IMG/VR virus record: IMGVR_UViG_3300048930_000437
Span: 1 to 36,534 of that record
Origin: a virus
Direction: 5' to 3' (one strand)
DNA: 36,534 nt
Made by a program: the position numbers and the translations under genes
Notes under the pieces: generated by a model
Told to the model about the DNA's origin: nothing
Seen by the model: the letters and a program-made list of their open reading frames with translations, nothing else
The model's database searches: none
In this document: positions 23,461 through 34,908 of the stretch, piece by piece
Numbering within the stretch: the stretch's first letter is position 1
Layout of the letters: the number at the start of each line of letters is the position of its first letter

Positions 23461-25196
23461 GGATTGACGAAGGTGAACCACTTGAACCAACTGAGTCACA
23501 GGAACCGGGCACAATGGCAACGATAACTTCAGCACAAGCAGGCTTCGCAGATGTAGGCAGCACTTGGGTGGGCGGCGTCGCTCCCGGCGCTAGTGATGAT
23601 ATTATCTTGGCGCATTCAGTTACGTTTAGAAACAACACGACTCTTGCCGGTCTGGTAATCAATGCTGGTGGTGTGTTCATTAAAGGCGTTGATGTCGTCA
23701 TCACGATGAACGGCAATATTGTCCAGCAAAACAGCAATCGTCTTCAAATCGATTGGCTTGAAGGCGGCGGCATGGAGTTCGGGAACGGTGGGTTTACATT
23801 CGGTACACCGTCTCAGTATCCCGGCTCAATACCCTCATTCAGAGTAAGAGGAACCGAGGAGAAGCCTTGTTTTTTAAGGACTGCGACGGGTGGAACACGC
23901 GCTTATTTCTCGGGCACATCTACCTATCACGGGCTCATGGATTGCGAGTGGTTGAATGTCTCTGAGTTCGATAATGGCTCCGGAGTCGCACACACAAGTT
24001 CTCTGAATTCCGACGGCTCGGTCGGTAACTCAAGCTTGATTCGTTTTGTAAATTGTACGTTTGACAACTGTGGTCGCTTTAGCTTTTCAGGATACGGGCC
24101 TCATGCTCGTTCAACAGTCCAAAACTCTAAGTTTACAAATTGCCTGGGGGACAGAGCTTTTCACTCAGAGGCAGTTTGGCCAATGTCAGAGGGAGGTATC
24201 CGGCTCTTTGACGGCGTGATTGCGGAAACTCGGGTGAACTTTAACAATCCTAGAGATTTCAGTGTCAGAAATTGCACGTTGAACGGATTCCAAACGAGCT
24301 CACCAGACGGCGAAGATGGCCTAGCTCAGTTCAAGAACAACATGATTTTTCTTCCCGACAATGGAGACCCGCTGATCTGCGCTTCGCTCAGTGAGGACAA
24401 CGTTGTCATCTATACGGACGTCGACAAGACCAACGCGCATTTTTGGGAGATCGGCAATTATGCCGATATTACAACTTATACAATCAGCGGCTTGATTATA
24501 GAGTTTCTGGGCAACGACACAGATGGAGACGGCCACATTGTTTCTGTCCCTTCGGTTCCTACTACTATCAATTTTGAGAGGGTCATTGTTCTCCCAAACG
24601 GCGCGGGCAATACATCGGCAACGCTTGCAAGCTTACTCGGAAACGCGAATGTCACGGCGAACTTTAGGAAGTCGACTATCCACACAGGCAGCAATGGTGG
24701 CATCGCGGTTGGCGAGACGTATGCAGGGCATCCGGGGATGGTTGGCGAGTGCGTTGACTGTATTGCTTGGGACACTGCGGGGCGCGGCTATCTCATGTTT
24801 GATTCTGGGGTGAATGATTCTGTTACTGACCTAATCGCGGCGTCAGATTTTGACTACAACTGCGCTCACAACATCGCAGGGTTTTCAAACAATCTCGAGT
24901 TCACGGGAACCCCTAATCAAAATTCAATTACAGAGAATCCGCAATTCAAAGACCCGACTCGTGACTTTCGTTCTTTCGATGTAGCCAATGGCGGTGACGG
25001 CAATGTCACAAATGCGCTCTCGAGGTGGTTCGCTGGAAACTACATTCCGCAGCAATTCATTGATTACATACATGAAGGCTTTACTCCTCAGAACGCAGCG
25101 CTGCAGGGCGCGGCGTCAGACGGTGGTGACATCGGGGCGGTTGCGGTCGTTCCAGCTAGTCGAGGCGTCGGGGTTATGACTATGGGCATCGAATAG
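23445..25196 (+). CDS. beta-helix tailspike-like protein
   Basis: 583 residues. The N-terminus is short and acidic, then ATITSAQAGFADVGSTWVGGVAPGASDDIILAHSVTFRNNTTLAGLVINAGG is the opening coil of a right-handed beta-helix as seen in phage spikes. Rungs with repeated N/C/G turns continue (LIRFVNCTFDNCGRFSF, STVQNSKFTNCLG, FSVRNCTLNGFQ). It probably binds and perhaps degrades host surface polysaccharide; catalytic residues cannot be named from sequence. Last of the tail genes, directly before the lysozyme. Confidence 0.8.
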   Translation: MPSGIGIDEGEPLEPTESQEPGTMATITSAQAGFADVGSTWVGGVAPGASDDIILAHSVTFRNNTTLAGLVINAGGVFIKGVDVVITMNGNIVQQNSNRLQIDWLEGGGMEFGNGGFTFGTPSQYPGSIPSFRVRGTEEKPCFLRTATGGTRAYFSGTSTYHGLMDCEWLNVSEFDNGSGVAHTSSLNSDGSVGNSSLIRFVNCTFDNCGRFSFSGYGPHARSTVQNSKFTNCLGDRAFHSEAVWPMSEGGIRLFDGVIAETRVNFNNPRDFSVRNCTLNGFQTSSPDGEDGLAQFKNNMIFLPDNGDPLICASLSEDNVVIYTDVDKTNAHFWEIGNYADITTYTISGLIIEFLGNDTDGDGHIVSVPSVPTTINFERVIVLPNGAGNTSATLASLLGNANVTANFRKSTIHTGSNGGIAVGETYAGHPGMVGECVDCIAWDTAGRGYLMFDSGVNDSVTDLIAASDFDYNCAHNIAGFSNNLEFTGTPNQNSITENPQFKDPTRDFRSFDVANGGDGNVTNALSRWFAGNYIPQQFIDYIHEGFTPQNAALQGAASDGGDIGAVAVVPASRGVGVMTMGIE

Positions 25197-25219
25197 TGCT
25201 CTTTTTGGAGTGGGTAATT

Positions 25220-25693
25220 ATGTACGCAAAACAGTTCTTGGGTAAGGAACAACACATCAACGATAAGGGCATTGCTCTGATTAAAGAGTTCGAGGGGCTA
25301 TCTCTCAAGGCGTACAAGTGCCCCGGCAACATTTGGACTATCGGCTACGGTCACACCAGAACCGTCACTCCAGATTTAGTGATCACAAAAGAGAGAGCTG
25401 AAGAGCTGTTACTTGAAGACTTGGAGTTCAGCGAAGACTCAGTTCGCAAGCTCGTCAGAGTACCACTAACATCAAATCAGTTCTCCGCACTTGTGAGCTT
25501 TGTATACAACTTGGGCGAGACGCAGTTTAGAAGTTCAACTCTGCTTAAGATGCTCAACGATCGCGACTACTCGGGGGCTTCGGTGCAGTTCTTGCGTTGG
25601 GTATACTCAAACAAGAAAAAGCTCAACGGTCTGGTGCGCAGACGTGAAGCTGAGATGAGGCTCTTTTTGGAGGACGACAGTGACGGCAGCTGA
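25220..25693 (+). CDS. endolysin: GH24 T4-type lysozyme
   Basis: ATG 25220 has GGAG 9 bases upstream and is preferred over an in-frame GTG at 25196. In the resulting 157-residue protein the catalytic triad follows the E-8aa-C-5aa-T spacing: Glu25 (EFEG), Cys34 (KCPG) and Thr40 (WTIGYGHT). Cys instead of Asp in the second position is a known variant. SNQFSALVSFVYNLG is the usual second motif. It cuts the glycan strands of peptidoglycan. No signal or SAR segment is visible, so release should need a holin. Confidence 0.95.
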   Translation: MYAKQFLGKEQHINDKGIALIKEFEGLSLKAYKCPGNIWTIGYGHTRTVTPDLVITKERAEELLLEDLEFSEDSVRKLVRVPLTSNQFSALVSFVYNLGETQFRSSTLLKMLNDRDYSGASVQFLRWVYSNKKKLNGLVRRREAEMRLFLEDDSDGS

Positions 25694-25937
25694 AAAGGTC
25701 AACAGCTTTGCGATTGTGGTGGTCGTGTGTTCTGCGCTCTTTGCGTTCTTTACTTTTGCCGCGACGCGGTGGATCGGGACTATGGAGCGCGAGGTTGACA
25801 GGGGACGCGAGAGAGATATCCGCATCTCAACTCTTGAGCACAAGATTGCGAGCGTTGATAACAAGCTCGGTCTGATGAATTCAAAGCTCGACAAATTGGT
25901 TGATAACTTAATCGAGGACCGTAGGGGTAGGGATTAA
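25680..25937 (+). CDS. small membrane protein with coiled coil (lysis region)
   Basis: 85 residues from a GTG overlapping the lysozyme end. One N-terminal membrane helix (about residues 8-28, FAIVVVVCSALFAFFTFAATRWI) is followed by a charged coiled coil with heptads (ISTLEHKIASVDNKLGLMNSKLDKLVDNLIED). This is the topology of an inner-membrane spanin (Rz-like) or of a holin accessory protein. With the lipoprotein at 26527 it could form a two-part spanin, but that lipoprotein may also work alone. Unassigned otherwise. Confidence 0.7.
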   Translation: MTAAEKVNSFAIVVVVCSALFAFFTFAATRWIGTMEREVDRGRERDIRISTLEHKIASVDNKLGLMNSKLDKLVDNLIEDRRGRD

Positions 25938-25964
25938 GCTCTCAGACTGCACCACACTTGCTGT

Positions 25965-26876
25965 GTGAGAACCTATTTCCTAGTTGGTCTCTTGGCCTTC
26001 TCTACGCTTGTTTGGGTGGAGAAGGCTTTTTCTGATTCGCAGACCACAGTCGGCGTCTCAGCACTTGCGAGCGCTTCTCCTCGTTTCAATTGCCGTCCGC
26101 TTCTTCGCTACTACCGAAGACAAAATGAAGTCTACCTCGGCGCTCTCTGGGCAAGCTTTGGCAGGTCGCGGCGTTGCTGGAAGAGAGTGATTGCTCTTGG
26201 TAAGCCTACGACGCTGCAAATCTACGCAACGAATGAGAACTGCAGGAAGAAGGGAAACTGCTTTAAGGGTGAGTTTTTGCCGACGGTTTCAGTTGGGGAG
26301 CTCGAGCGCAGGACTCTAAGCGGAGAGACTCGCACCGGCTCCCAGTGGGTTAGGCTCTTCCGCAGCATACGTTCATTCTGTGATGGCAATCTTGAGGGCG
26401 AGAGCCGTTGCTTGCTTGCGCTGGGTCTTGAGAGCCAGTGGTCGCGCAAAATGACGAACAAGCTTGTTGAGCTTGCAGCTTTTGCGGGGTGGAGTAGTGA
26501 ATACGTGGTCACGAATCCTTCAATCAATGCGGGGTTTCAAGGCCGCTCTCGTGCTGGGTTGCGTGAGCGTCATGTTACTACTCGCAAGCTGTTCTTCCCG
26601 GCAAGAGATTCGGGAAGAGAGATTATTACTCTCGACGGAGTTGCTGCAAGTTACGTGTGCAACAGATGGGCTGGTGATGAAATATCCGAGGAACAACTGC
26701 GAGAGTCGATCCGTCGAAACTGTCGAAGTAAAACTCGATATTTCGGCTTGTGGTGTCCAGAGTGGCAGGGACTCAGTGGCGACTCGTCCGTCGCTCCTCC
26801 TCCCCGTTCTCGAAAGCCTAGTGTTAATTACCGGAGCCTTTTTAGGTTTCACCAGATAACGAGAGAGGAGTGTTGA
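25965..26876 (+). CDS. secreted protein of unknown function, 303 aa, host of a nested gene
   Basis: A GTG start gives an N-terminal signal peptide (YFLVGLLAFSTLVWVEKAFS), so the product is exported. The body is Cys- and Arg-rich: FNCRPLLRYYRRQNEVYLGALWASFGRSRRCWKR, LQIYATNENCRKKGNC, ESRCLLALGLESQWSRK, then DGVAASYVC and YFGLWCPEWQG near the end. I recall similar uncharacterised secreted proteins in phages near lysis genes, but not a function; a hydrolase is possible. The C-terminal third is overlapped in the +1 frame by a lipoprotein gene (26527-26859). The ribosome site is weak. Confidence 0.7.
   Translation: MRTYFLVGLLAFSTLVWVEKAFSDSQTTVGVSALASASPRFNCRPLLRYYRRQNEVYLGALWASFGRSRRCWKRVIALGKPTTLQIYATNENCRKKGNCFKGEFLPTVSVGELERRTLSGETRTGSQWVRLFRSIRSFCDGNLEGESRCLLALGLESQWSRKMTNKLVELAAFAGWSSEYVVTNPSINAGFQGRSRAGLRERHVTTRKLFFPARDSGREIITLDGVAASYVCNRWAGDEISEEQLRESIRRNCRSKTRYFGLWCPEWQGLSGDSSVAPPPRSRKPSVNYRSLFRFHQITREEC
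26527..26859 (+). CDS. nested lipoprotein spanin (u-spanin-like)
   Basis: This 110-residue frame lies wholly inside the 25965-26876 gene, in the +1 frame. It begins MRGFKAALVLGCVSVMLLLASC, a signal sequence ending in a lipobox (LLASC, lipid on Cys22), and ends with a hydrophobic helix (about residues 86-106, LLLPVLESLVLITGAFLGF). Outer-membrane lipid at one end and inner-membrane helix at the other is the plan of unimolecular spanins such as T1 gp11, which fuse the two membranes in the last step of lysis. No strong ribosome site precedes the ATG, so coupling to the host gene is possible. If the C-terminal helix is not a true membrane segment, it would be an Rz1-like partner. Confidence 0.72.
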   Translation: MRGFKAALVLGCVSVMLLLASCSSRQEIREERLLLSTELLQVTCATDGLVMKYPRNNCESRSVETVEVKLDISACGVQSGRDSVATRPSLLLPVLESLVLITGAFLGFTR

Positions 26877-26877
26877 T

Positions 26878-27177
26878 ATGGGTTCATTCATTAACTTACT
26901 GAATAGGGCACTGAGCTTACTGCCTAAGAACGGGGGGAAGACTCAGGGCGGTCTTGTAGCAATGGGCATCTCGATGTTGCTCGGGCTTGTGGGGCAGTAC
27001 CTACCGGTGCAGCCTGATGCGGAGCAAGTCAACATGATCATGCTGTACGGTCAGCAGGCTCTTGAGGGCATCTCTCAAATCCTTGCAATATTCGGCATTT
27101 CACTCTTCGGCGTCGGCGCTACTCACAAAGCTGTGAAGGCGGTCGACAAGAAGGATGTTCCGATGTGGGACCGGTAG
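26878..27177 (+). CDS. holin candidate, two-helix membrane protein
   Basis: 99 residues, beginning one base after the stop at 26876 with GAGAGGAG upstream. It has two hydrophobic segments, GGLVAMGISMLLGLVGQYLPV (about residues 23-43) and ISQILAIFGISLFGVGATH (about 63-81), and a charged C-terminus, fitting a class II holin. Holins make the inner-membrane lesions that let lysozyme out. No family is recognised with confidence. It is the last gene of the late operon. Confidence 0.6.
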   Translation: MGSFINLLNRALSLLPKNGGKTQGGLVAMGISMLLGLVGQYLPVQPDAEQVNMIMLYGQQALEGISQILAIFGISLFGVGATHKAVKAVDKKDVPMWDR

Positions 27178-27660: not shown

Positions 27661-27697
27661 TGTCTTTTGAGATGCTGCTAGATACGGTGACGTGCGT

Positions 27698-33671: not shown

Positions 33672-33881
33672 ATGGAAGGTGTAGCTGCAACTTTGTTGTT
33701 CTTAATTGCCTTGGTGGTGATTTACTTCGCTCCGACAATAGTCGCGTGTCTTAGGAAGCACAACAACGATAGCGCCATTTTGGTTCTGAACTTCTTTCTC
33801 GGCTGGACCCTGATCGGATGGGTGCTAGCACTCGTCTGGGCCTTCACGTCGAACGTCAAAGCCGATTCCCTAAAGCAATAA
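33672..33881 (+). CDS. superinfection immunity protein (Imm family)
   Basis: 69 residues, with AGGAGAAG before the ATG. Two membrane helices (about residues 4-26 and 34-60) and the family pattern IYFAPTIVACLRKHNNDSAILVLNFFLGWTLIGWVLALVWAF. T4 Imm and relatives sit in the inner membrane and stop entry of DNA from later phages. Here it is embedded in the early operon rather than with lysogeny genes, so it should act at once after infection or induction; prophage expression is not shown. Confidence 0.9.
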   Translation: MEGVAATLLFLIALVVIYFAPTIVACLRKHNNDSAILVLNFFLGWTLIGWVLALVWAFTSNVKADSLKQ

Positions 33882-33943: not shown

Positions 33944-33963
33944 AATAGGTGGAGTGTTGTCTG

Positions 33964-34908
33964 ATGAGTATAACTGACAGGGGTAACGAGTACGTGGAAA
34001 TTTTACTGCGGCACGACATCGTACCATTCGCCAAGTTCCCAACGTTTTTTTTATCAGCTCAAACAAGCTCATCAAAGAACGACGATCTGCTTCGGTTCAT
34101 GCTGTGGGCCGATCATTGGGCGACGCTAGAGAACCGTCCATACAAAGACCTGAACGGGAATCTTACTCCTTTAGAGGTCGGGCAATTCATGAAGAAGGGT
34201 GAGCAGCTTGCGGAGTATGGATTTTCTGCTCAAACAATGCGGCGCATCGTCAGAAACCTCGAAAGAAACATGTTCCTCCACTGCGAATCAATCCCGGGGG
34301 TTGGTCGCATTTTTACCGTTTTTCACAGGCTCCCGGTCCACTTAAGGCCTGTTTTCGTATCTAAGTTGGGCCGGAATTCGGCAATGATTTCGGAGCACTT
34401 AGTCGATGACGTGAATTTAGTCCAACAGGAAGGTCGCACGAACCCCAACACGAACCCCAACGTACTATATAATAAGACAGAAAACACACACACGGAGACT
34501 CAAAGTCGTAGTGTGTGTGTGTTTTCTGGCGAAGGACAGGGCTCCGACGGGCCTGTAGCCCTGAGCCCTGCCTCGCCAGTTGAAGAAGTTGGTGACCCGC
34601 TATTCCATTTTCATCACTCGCTCGACACAGAACGGAAAGGCTTCGCACTCACAATCAGCAAGTCACAGGGTGAGCTTCTCAGGAGGCGCATAACTGGAGA
34701 CCACCAAGACCGAGCAATTAAGCACCTAATAGACGATGTAATCGATTGGCTAGAGGCTAACCCTAGCAAACAGGAAACCTCGCAGGGGAGGCATTTCCGG
34801 AGGATTCTGGCGTTCTACAAAAGGAATCAGTCGAACGGTCTCAGGTTCTTTGAACATCCGGAGAACGGCTGGGGGTTTCACAAAGCACCTCGAAAGCGAA
34901 AGGGGTAG
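33964..34908 (+). CDS. replication initiator-like DNA-binding protein
   Basis: ATG 33964 has GGTGGAG about 9 bases upstream and gives 314 residues. The N-terminal 140 residues look like a winged-helix DNA-binding domain (FLSAQTSSSKNDDLLRFMLWADHW, YGFSAQTMRRIVRNLERNMFL, GVGRIFTVFHRLPV). A Ser/Thr/Asn-rich linker (about 160-210) coincides with the iterons and hairpins in the DNA. The C-terminal part is helical (LLRRRITGDHQDRAIKHLIDDVIDWLE). The layout parallels lambda O, an initiator with the origin inside its own gene, and the next gene encodes a helicase-type ATPase. The family is not identified exactly. Confidence 0.65.
   Translation: MSITDRGNEYVEILLRHDIVPFAKFPTFFLSAQTSSSKNDDLLRFMLWADHWATLENRPYKDLNGNLTPLEVGQFMKKGEQLAEYGFSAQTMRRIVRNLERNMFLHCESIPGVGRIFTVFHRLPVHLRPVFVSKLGRNSAMISEHLVDDVNLVQQEGRTNPNTNPNVLYNKTENTHTETQSRSVCVFSGEGQGSDGPVALSPASPVEEVGDPLFHFHHSLDTERKGFALTISKSQGELLRRRITGDHQDRAIKHLIDDVIDWLEANPSKQETSQGRHFRRILAFYKRNQSNGLRFFEHPENGWGFHKAPRKRKG
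34438..34461 (+). repeat. tandem 12-bp iterons (ACGAACCCCAAC x2)
   Basis: Two exact, adjacent 12-mers at 34438-34449 and 34450-34461 inside the replication gene. They are followed by A+T-rich sequence (TACTATATAATAAG, 34463-34476) and by large hairpins, the usual ingredients of an origin. Confidence 0.75.
34479..34527. repeat. 15-bp perfect inverted repeat with nested hairpin
   Basis: AGAAAACACACACAC and its exact complement GTGTGTGTGTTTTCT are separated by 19 bases, which themselves hold GACT-CAA-AGTC. Confidence 0.9.
34528..34576. repeat. compound G+C-rich hairpin
   Basis: CAGGGCTC (34537-34544) pairs with GAGCCCTG (34563-34570), GGGC/GCCC pair inside it (34549-34561), and GGCGA/TCGCC extend the stem outward with bulges. 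It begins right after the AC/GT stem. Confidence 0.75.

Follow-up and report, generated by a model that had tools for sequence, protein, structure and literature searches.

Does a short frame lying wholly inside a phage gene for a secreted protein encode a spanin lipoprotein, or is it open by chance? The question is raised by a 36.5-kb virus record, which we analysed over its full 36,534 nucleotides (the window). Spanins, which breach the outer membrane, are the usual last step in the lysis of Gram-negative hosts by phages. An earlier note had described two frames over the same bases: (i) an outer gene for a larger exported protein; and (ii) a nested frame with the layout of a one-piece spanin. 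We recovered both ORFs with the coordinates given there, the nested ORF being in the +1 frame (offset 1). The record carries terminase, portal, capsid, tape measure and tail-fibre genes, together with an integrase at 27697 and recombination genes 3' of it, and is a temperate HK97-type siphophage. Its lysis cassette (25196-27177) consists of a lysozyme, an 85-aa protein with a transmembrane (TM) segment and a coiled coil, the 303-aa outer gene and a 99-aa holin-like protein (Table 1). Within the cassette no Rfam family passed its gathering threshold, and we found neither promoter-like nor terminator-like sites within the nested ORF. The longest form of the lysozyme gene begins at a GTG (25196-25225) that lacks a Shine-Dalgarno sequence, and an in-frame internal ATG at about 25220 has a better one, with TTTTTGGAGTGGG upstream; this ATG is probably the true start.

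Table 1. Features of the lysis cassette (window coordinates)
Feature	Coordinates	Strand	Description
Endolysin	25196..25693	+	Phage_lysozyme (Pfam), E 8e-47
85-aa protein	25680..25937	+	N-terminal TM (KD 2.58) and heptad coiled coil; overlaps lysozyme end; candidate i-spanin or holin-associated
Outer gene, 303 aa	25965..26876	+	GTG start; signal peptide with cleavage-like AFS/D; 10 Cys; remote L098 homologue; fold possibly TIM-barrel-like
Possible upstream in-frame GTG start, 120-aa form	26497..26526	+	Moderate Shine-Dalgarno, dG -6.3
Nested +1-frame ORF, 110 aa, candidate spanin lipoprotein	26527..26859	+	Signal/lipobox residues 5-22; Cys 44, 58, 75; hydrophobic helix 90-108
99-aa holin-like protein	26878..27177	+	Two TM-like segments; strong Shine-Dalgarno

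We searched for relatives of both translations. Neither had a significant relative in Pfam, PHROGs, NCBIfam or tblastn searches of phages, peptide scans of IMG/VR and GTDB and degenerate Cys-motif scans found no relative of either, and a profile search of 369 genomes from the class of a Gammaproteobacteria MAG gave only short, low-scoring matches, several with stops. The closest of the terminase-based relatives (G001) ends before its lysis genes. The comparison with phage proteins that the earlier note had proposed therefore yielded no significant database match for either translation, but relatives of tail protein J led us to one homologue of the outer protein, a 286-aa product encoded at 14715-15575 of L098; whole-record profile searches of 61 relatives found no other. 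The L098 gene lies directly 3' of a transglycosylase-type endolysin gene and 5' of a small holin-like protein. Residues 6-225 of the outer protein align with it at 24% identity (pairwise E 2e-5, shuffle z about 8), and the two share an MR start, a signal peptide ending AFS/D or AFG/Q and an NExC...C motif. In an alignment that allows for frameshifts, frame 0 is retained up to base 26651, which lies 125 bases past the start of the nested ORF; similarity beyond this base is not significant. The WCPEWQG motif is in the outer frame, and the GTG start of the outer gene has no ribosome-binding site (dG +0.7). By these sequence comparisons the outer gene is real, at least over most of its length.

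A two-sequence AlphaFold2 model of the outer protein was poor (pLDDT 45.5) and gave a low-confidence alpha/beta prediction. Foldseek with this model returned two uncharacterised uncultured-phage proteins at E < 1e-3 and a third at 6e-3; the three BFVD proteins of uncultured phages that resemble the outer protein are A0A6J5M538, A0A6J5SYH0 and A0A6J5MYV4. Against the PDB it gave a weak list of mostly TIM-barrel enzymes, all with E above 0.02. Based on the L098 homology, the signal site and the Foldseek and PDB matches, we prefer to read the outer product as an exported phage lysis-cassette protein, possibly with a TIM-barrel-like fold, and not as a coiled-coil Rz. This agrees with the earlier description of an exported protein unlike Rz, which now has a homologue in L098 and no typical coiled coil behind it. 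A phmmer match in the PDB to a ferulic acid esterase (E 0.47) was uninformative and was set aside. We note that the outer protein and its L098 homologue found a small uncharacterised family of exported, Cys-containing lysis-cassette proteins, to which the three BFVD proteins look related.

The nested ORF runs from its ATG to a TAA over 110 codons, and its frame is open from 26464, giving 131 codons with a TTG start. The predicted product has a hydrophobic N-terminal core followed by the lipobox LLASC-SS, with Cys22 as the predicted lipidation site and Ser at +2, then three predicted periplasmic Cys, and finally a hydrophobic 19-mer (residues 90-108, mean Kyte-Doolittle 2.08, one Glu inside) that we call a TM segment from hydropathy alone, plus a helix in the model. 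In that AlphaFold2 model, made with no alignment, helices span residues 2-25 and 91-108, mostly with block pLDDT 73-79, and the middle is low-confidence; a fold search with it was uninformative. The signal sequence, lipobox and C-terminal helix that had been noted before are thus all present, and the lipoprotein signal is far beyond chance, as quantified below. The ATG has no ribosome-binding site (dG -2.2), though most genes of this phage have a clear one; the GTG at 26497 would yield the 120-aa form with the signal unchanged. Codons of the nested frame are poor against genome usage (z -4.1).

We asked whether the nested ORF could have arisen by chance from the codon composition of the outer gene, in a phage that is spanin-less or uses a non-lipoprotein route. 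Length does not speak against this reading: when the outer gene was shuffled with its protein or its codons preserved, 8-16% of the shuffles had a longest +1 ORF of 131 codons or more (P about 0.1), and since such openness is frequent, the length of the nested ORF is no evidence. A 123-codon antisense ORF is likewise open across the same bases, and the missing Shine-Dalgarno sequence at the ATG also fits a chance frame. The signals behave differently. Under the standard lipobox rule, randomising the outer gene produced an alternative-frame lipobox ORF in 0.02% of cases by synonymous swapping and in 0.19% by codon shuffling; a lipobox combined with a C-terminal TM appeared in 0 of 20,000 swaps and 1 of 20,000 shuffles. 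A permissive rule applied to the long ORFs of related phage DNA, 1.4 Mb in all, returned six nested lipobox ORFs, and a C-terminal TM was absent from each; five appear spurious, and the remaining one, a genuine Rz1 within Rz next to an endolysin (L095), served as the positive control for the scan. Across all six frames of the window, the permissive rule picked out no lipobox ORF of at least 40 aa besides the nested one, and the additional matches under a relaxed rule were all implausible. Because the whole window had been searched when the nested ORF was first singled out, the per-gene probabilities need relaxing; from 0 cases in 1.4 Mb we infer a chance probability under about 0.1 per 36-kb window, and well below this in the 2-kb lysis cassette. 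In the outer frame, synonymous codon use is unremarkable before the overlap begins (z +0.76) but shifted inside it (z -2.39), the pattern that a constraint from a second frame would produce.

The sole relative adds to the chance side. The +1 frame of L098 that matches the nested ORF has three stops, the L098 record has no plausible lipobox ORF in any frame, and we found no homologue of the nested protein. Hence conservation of the nested ORF could not be shown; L098 also gives no sign of another spanin doing the job, since it lacks any lipobox ORF. Relatives with an interrupted +1 frame but intact lysis genes had been named in advance as grounds for giving up the lipoprotein gene. The stops in L098 are mildly unfavourable in this respect, but with no lipobox ORF there and an outer protein only about 24% identical, L098 is too distant to decide on the nested ORF. 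Spanin-less Gram-negative phages do exist, according to a spanin survey (PMC6139136). Against chance stand the signal content, the position in the lysis cassette, the distorted outer-frame codons in the overlap, and the lack of a comparable case in 1.4 Mb of long ORFs even when the whole-window search is allowed for, and we consider the chance reading doubtful. Separately, the 37-kb phage contig L098 (G050), in which the outer homologue accompanies a transglycosylase-type endolysin, is a candidate spanin-less phage.

We tentatively favour the reading that the ORF at 26527-26859 is a real gene for an outer-membrane lipoprotein, a putative spanin, lying within a lysis-cassette gene for an unrelated secreted protein, in its +1 frame; the sequence features set out above could well be explained in this way. 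By family searches the nested protein is placed nowhere firmly. Its lipobox end matched Pfam LysC (PF23793; E 0.18-0.26) and PHROG 456, 'Rz-like spanin' (E 0.1), neither significantly, and at 11.7-12.2 bits against a curated cut-off of 27 bits it is not a LysC member by score; o-spanin candidates of related loci did no better (E 0.06 or nothing).

We compared the candidate with T1 gp11 by the same measurement. Both have the lipobox Cys at position 22, and the TM spans residues 107-125 of 133 in gp11 and 90-108 of 110 in the nested protein, so that the two share an N-terminal lipobox signal, a C-terminal TM-like helix and a location in the lysis cassette. They differ in three ways: (i) there is no sequence match; (ii) gp11 has no Cys outside its signal, lipobox and TM, whereas the nested protein has three; and (iii) T1 gene 11 stands alone 3' of the endolysin gene, whereas the nested ORF is embedded in another gene. 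In the published survey, none of 58 u-spanins has a periplasmic Cys, an empirical trait that is not part of the definition (PMC6139136). The nested protein thus has the lipobox signal and C-terminal TM of a u-spanin and departs from the class in its periplasmic Cys. Analysis of the lipobox and C-terminal TM, with no other clear lipoprotein in the genome, suggests the plan of a one-piece spanin; we prefer this plan, not strongly, because the C-terminal helix would otherwise be unneeded. The one-piece spanin proposed at the outset is therefore upheld in its topology, which fits T1 gp11, and by the lack of another spanin lipoprotein in the record, and is weakened by the three periplasmic Cys and by the 85-aa protein as a possible i-spanin partner.

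As a one-piece spanin, the nested protein would be exported by Sec and then lipidated at Cys22 (LLAS-C), and the Ser at +2 would direct Lol sorting to the outer membrane. The helix at residues 90-108 would anchor it in the inner membrane, so that, as in T1 gp11, a single protein would bridge both membranes. After the lysozyme has breached the peptidoglycan, this bridge would collapse and the inner and outer membranes would fuse. On a further and more tentative step, this may be a one-piece spanin newly arisen by overprinting in the +1 frame of an unrelated secreted-protein gene, with periplasmic Cys in a u-spanin topology, and L098 having the host gene and no lipoprotein.

The nested protein might instead be the o-spanin of a two-component system, with the 85-aa protein as i-spanin and the secreted-protein gene lying between the two and over the o-spanin. 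The 85-aa gene overlaps the end of the lysozyme gene, and its product combines an N-terminal TM with a strong heptad repeat and no periplasmic Cys; in lambda, Rz follows R. According to PMC6139136, an N-terminal TM is the criterion for a candidate i-spanin, periplasmic Cys are typical of two-component spanins, with 0 in the i-spanin and 2 in the o-spanin as the most common pattern, and the members of a pair can be as much as about 1 kb apart or have an unrelated gene between them. By its sequence signal the nested protein is a short outer-membrane lipoprotein, and its three periplasmic Cys would supply the at least one expected of such a pair; the 85-aa gene lies 590 bases upstream. An unrelated gene also lies between the separated spanins of T5-like Shivani, but here the intervening gene would overlap the o-spanin completely. 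On the other side, a C-terminal TM is not required of o-spanins and is absent from the o-spanin-like lipoproteins of related loci. In addition, 85 aa is short for an i-spanin, and this candidate has no homology support, with coil-level family matches alone (XhlA E 0.012) and no homologue found in phages. We regard a two-component system as unlikely.

An ordinary embedded Rz/Rz1 pair is very unlikely; in this reading the outer protein would retain its N-terminal helix to anchor it in the membrane and would act as the i-spanin. As in lambda-type Rz/Rz1, a +1-frame lipoprotein gene lies wholly inside a larger gene and ends near its 3' end (at 0.98 of the outer length), its product has periplasmic Cys, and the N-terminal TM of the outer protein fits the i-spanin criteria (PMC6139136). 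However, the host gene encodes a signal-peptide protein with, by the low-confidence model, an alpha/beta and possibly TIM-barrel-like domain and matches to uncharacterised phage proteins, and not a short coiled-coil type II membrane protein; the best coiled-coil score of the outer protein is 0.45 against 0.9 for the 85-aa protein. Moreover, both family members have a signal-peptidase-like AFS/D or AFG/Q site, the nested ORF starts at 0.62 of the outer length and not at the usual 0.4-0.5, and its product, unlike Rz1, has a C-terminal TM-like helix.

Finally, we rejected as highly improbable the idea that a frameshift has moved the real C-terminal coding part of the outer gene into the nested frame: nested-frame LQVTCATDGL does resemble L098 LDVTCSSDGL (pairwise E 0.009, shuffle P 0.002-0.009) and codon scores prefer +1 to frame 0 over the last 200 bases, but the frameshift-aware alignment stays in frame 0 through 26651 (SRA..E.H, LDG) at penalties of at least 18, places its shifts upstream at 14 and enters the nested frame only at an unrealistically low 10, the resembling stretches are about 20 codons out of register, and MAFFT aligns LW.P...LS and PP in frame 0 past 26651, although the C-terminal part alone is not significant. 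The likeness of the 12-residue nested-frame stretch LQVTCATDGLVM to LDVTCSSDGLTI of the L098 outer protein is unexplained; we treat it as coincidence because of this register difference and because sensible frameshift alignments do not use it.

If true, a spanin lipoprotein encoded within the gene of an unrelated secreted protein would put a known functional class into a new genetic arrangement, seen so far in one sequence. In the accessible part of PMC6139136, embedded o-spanins are defined as lying inside their own i-spanin gene and T1 gp11 is free-standing, and the arrangement proposed here would fall outside the embedded, overlapped, separated and unimolecular classes of that survey. The overlap would then not be tied to the co-evolution of two spanin partners, spanin genes could be born inside other cassette genes, and the two phages, this one and L098, might represent the states with and without a newly born lysis gene. 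Overlapping spanins often escape standard gene callers, and 196 of 528 o-spanins were unannotated (PMC6139136); annotation that seeks embedded spanins solely within i-spanin genes would overlook a gene of this kind.

Several observations were made elsewhere in the window and its relatives. An HNH homing endonuclease (HNH_3, NUMOD4 and AP2 domains) is encoded at 1274-1792, upstream of the terminase genes, and a 69-aa superinfection immunity protein at 33672-33881 (Pfam Imm_superinfect, E 2e-17). A 319-aa ORF at 33949-34908, which has no family match and the most deviant synonymous codons among the training genes (z -4.3), is possibly a recent arrival. In G001, an IS605-type OrfB/TnpB-like ORF (L089:4930-6285; Pfam OrfB_IS605, E 4e-28) interrupts the gene for tail protein J, and past this ORF the similarity to J resumes.
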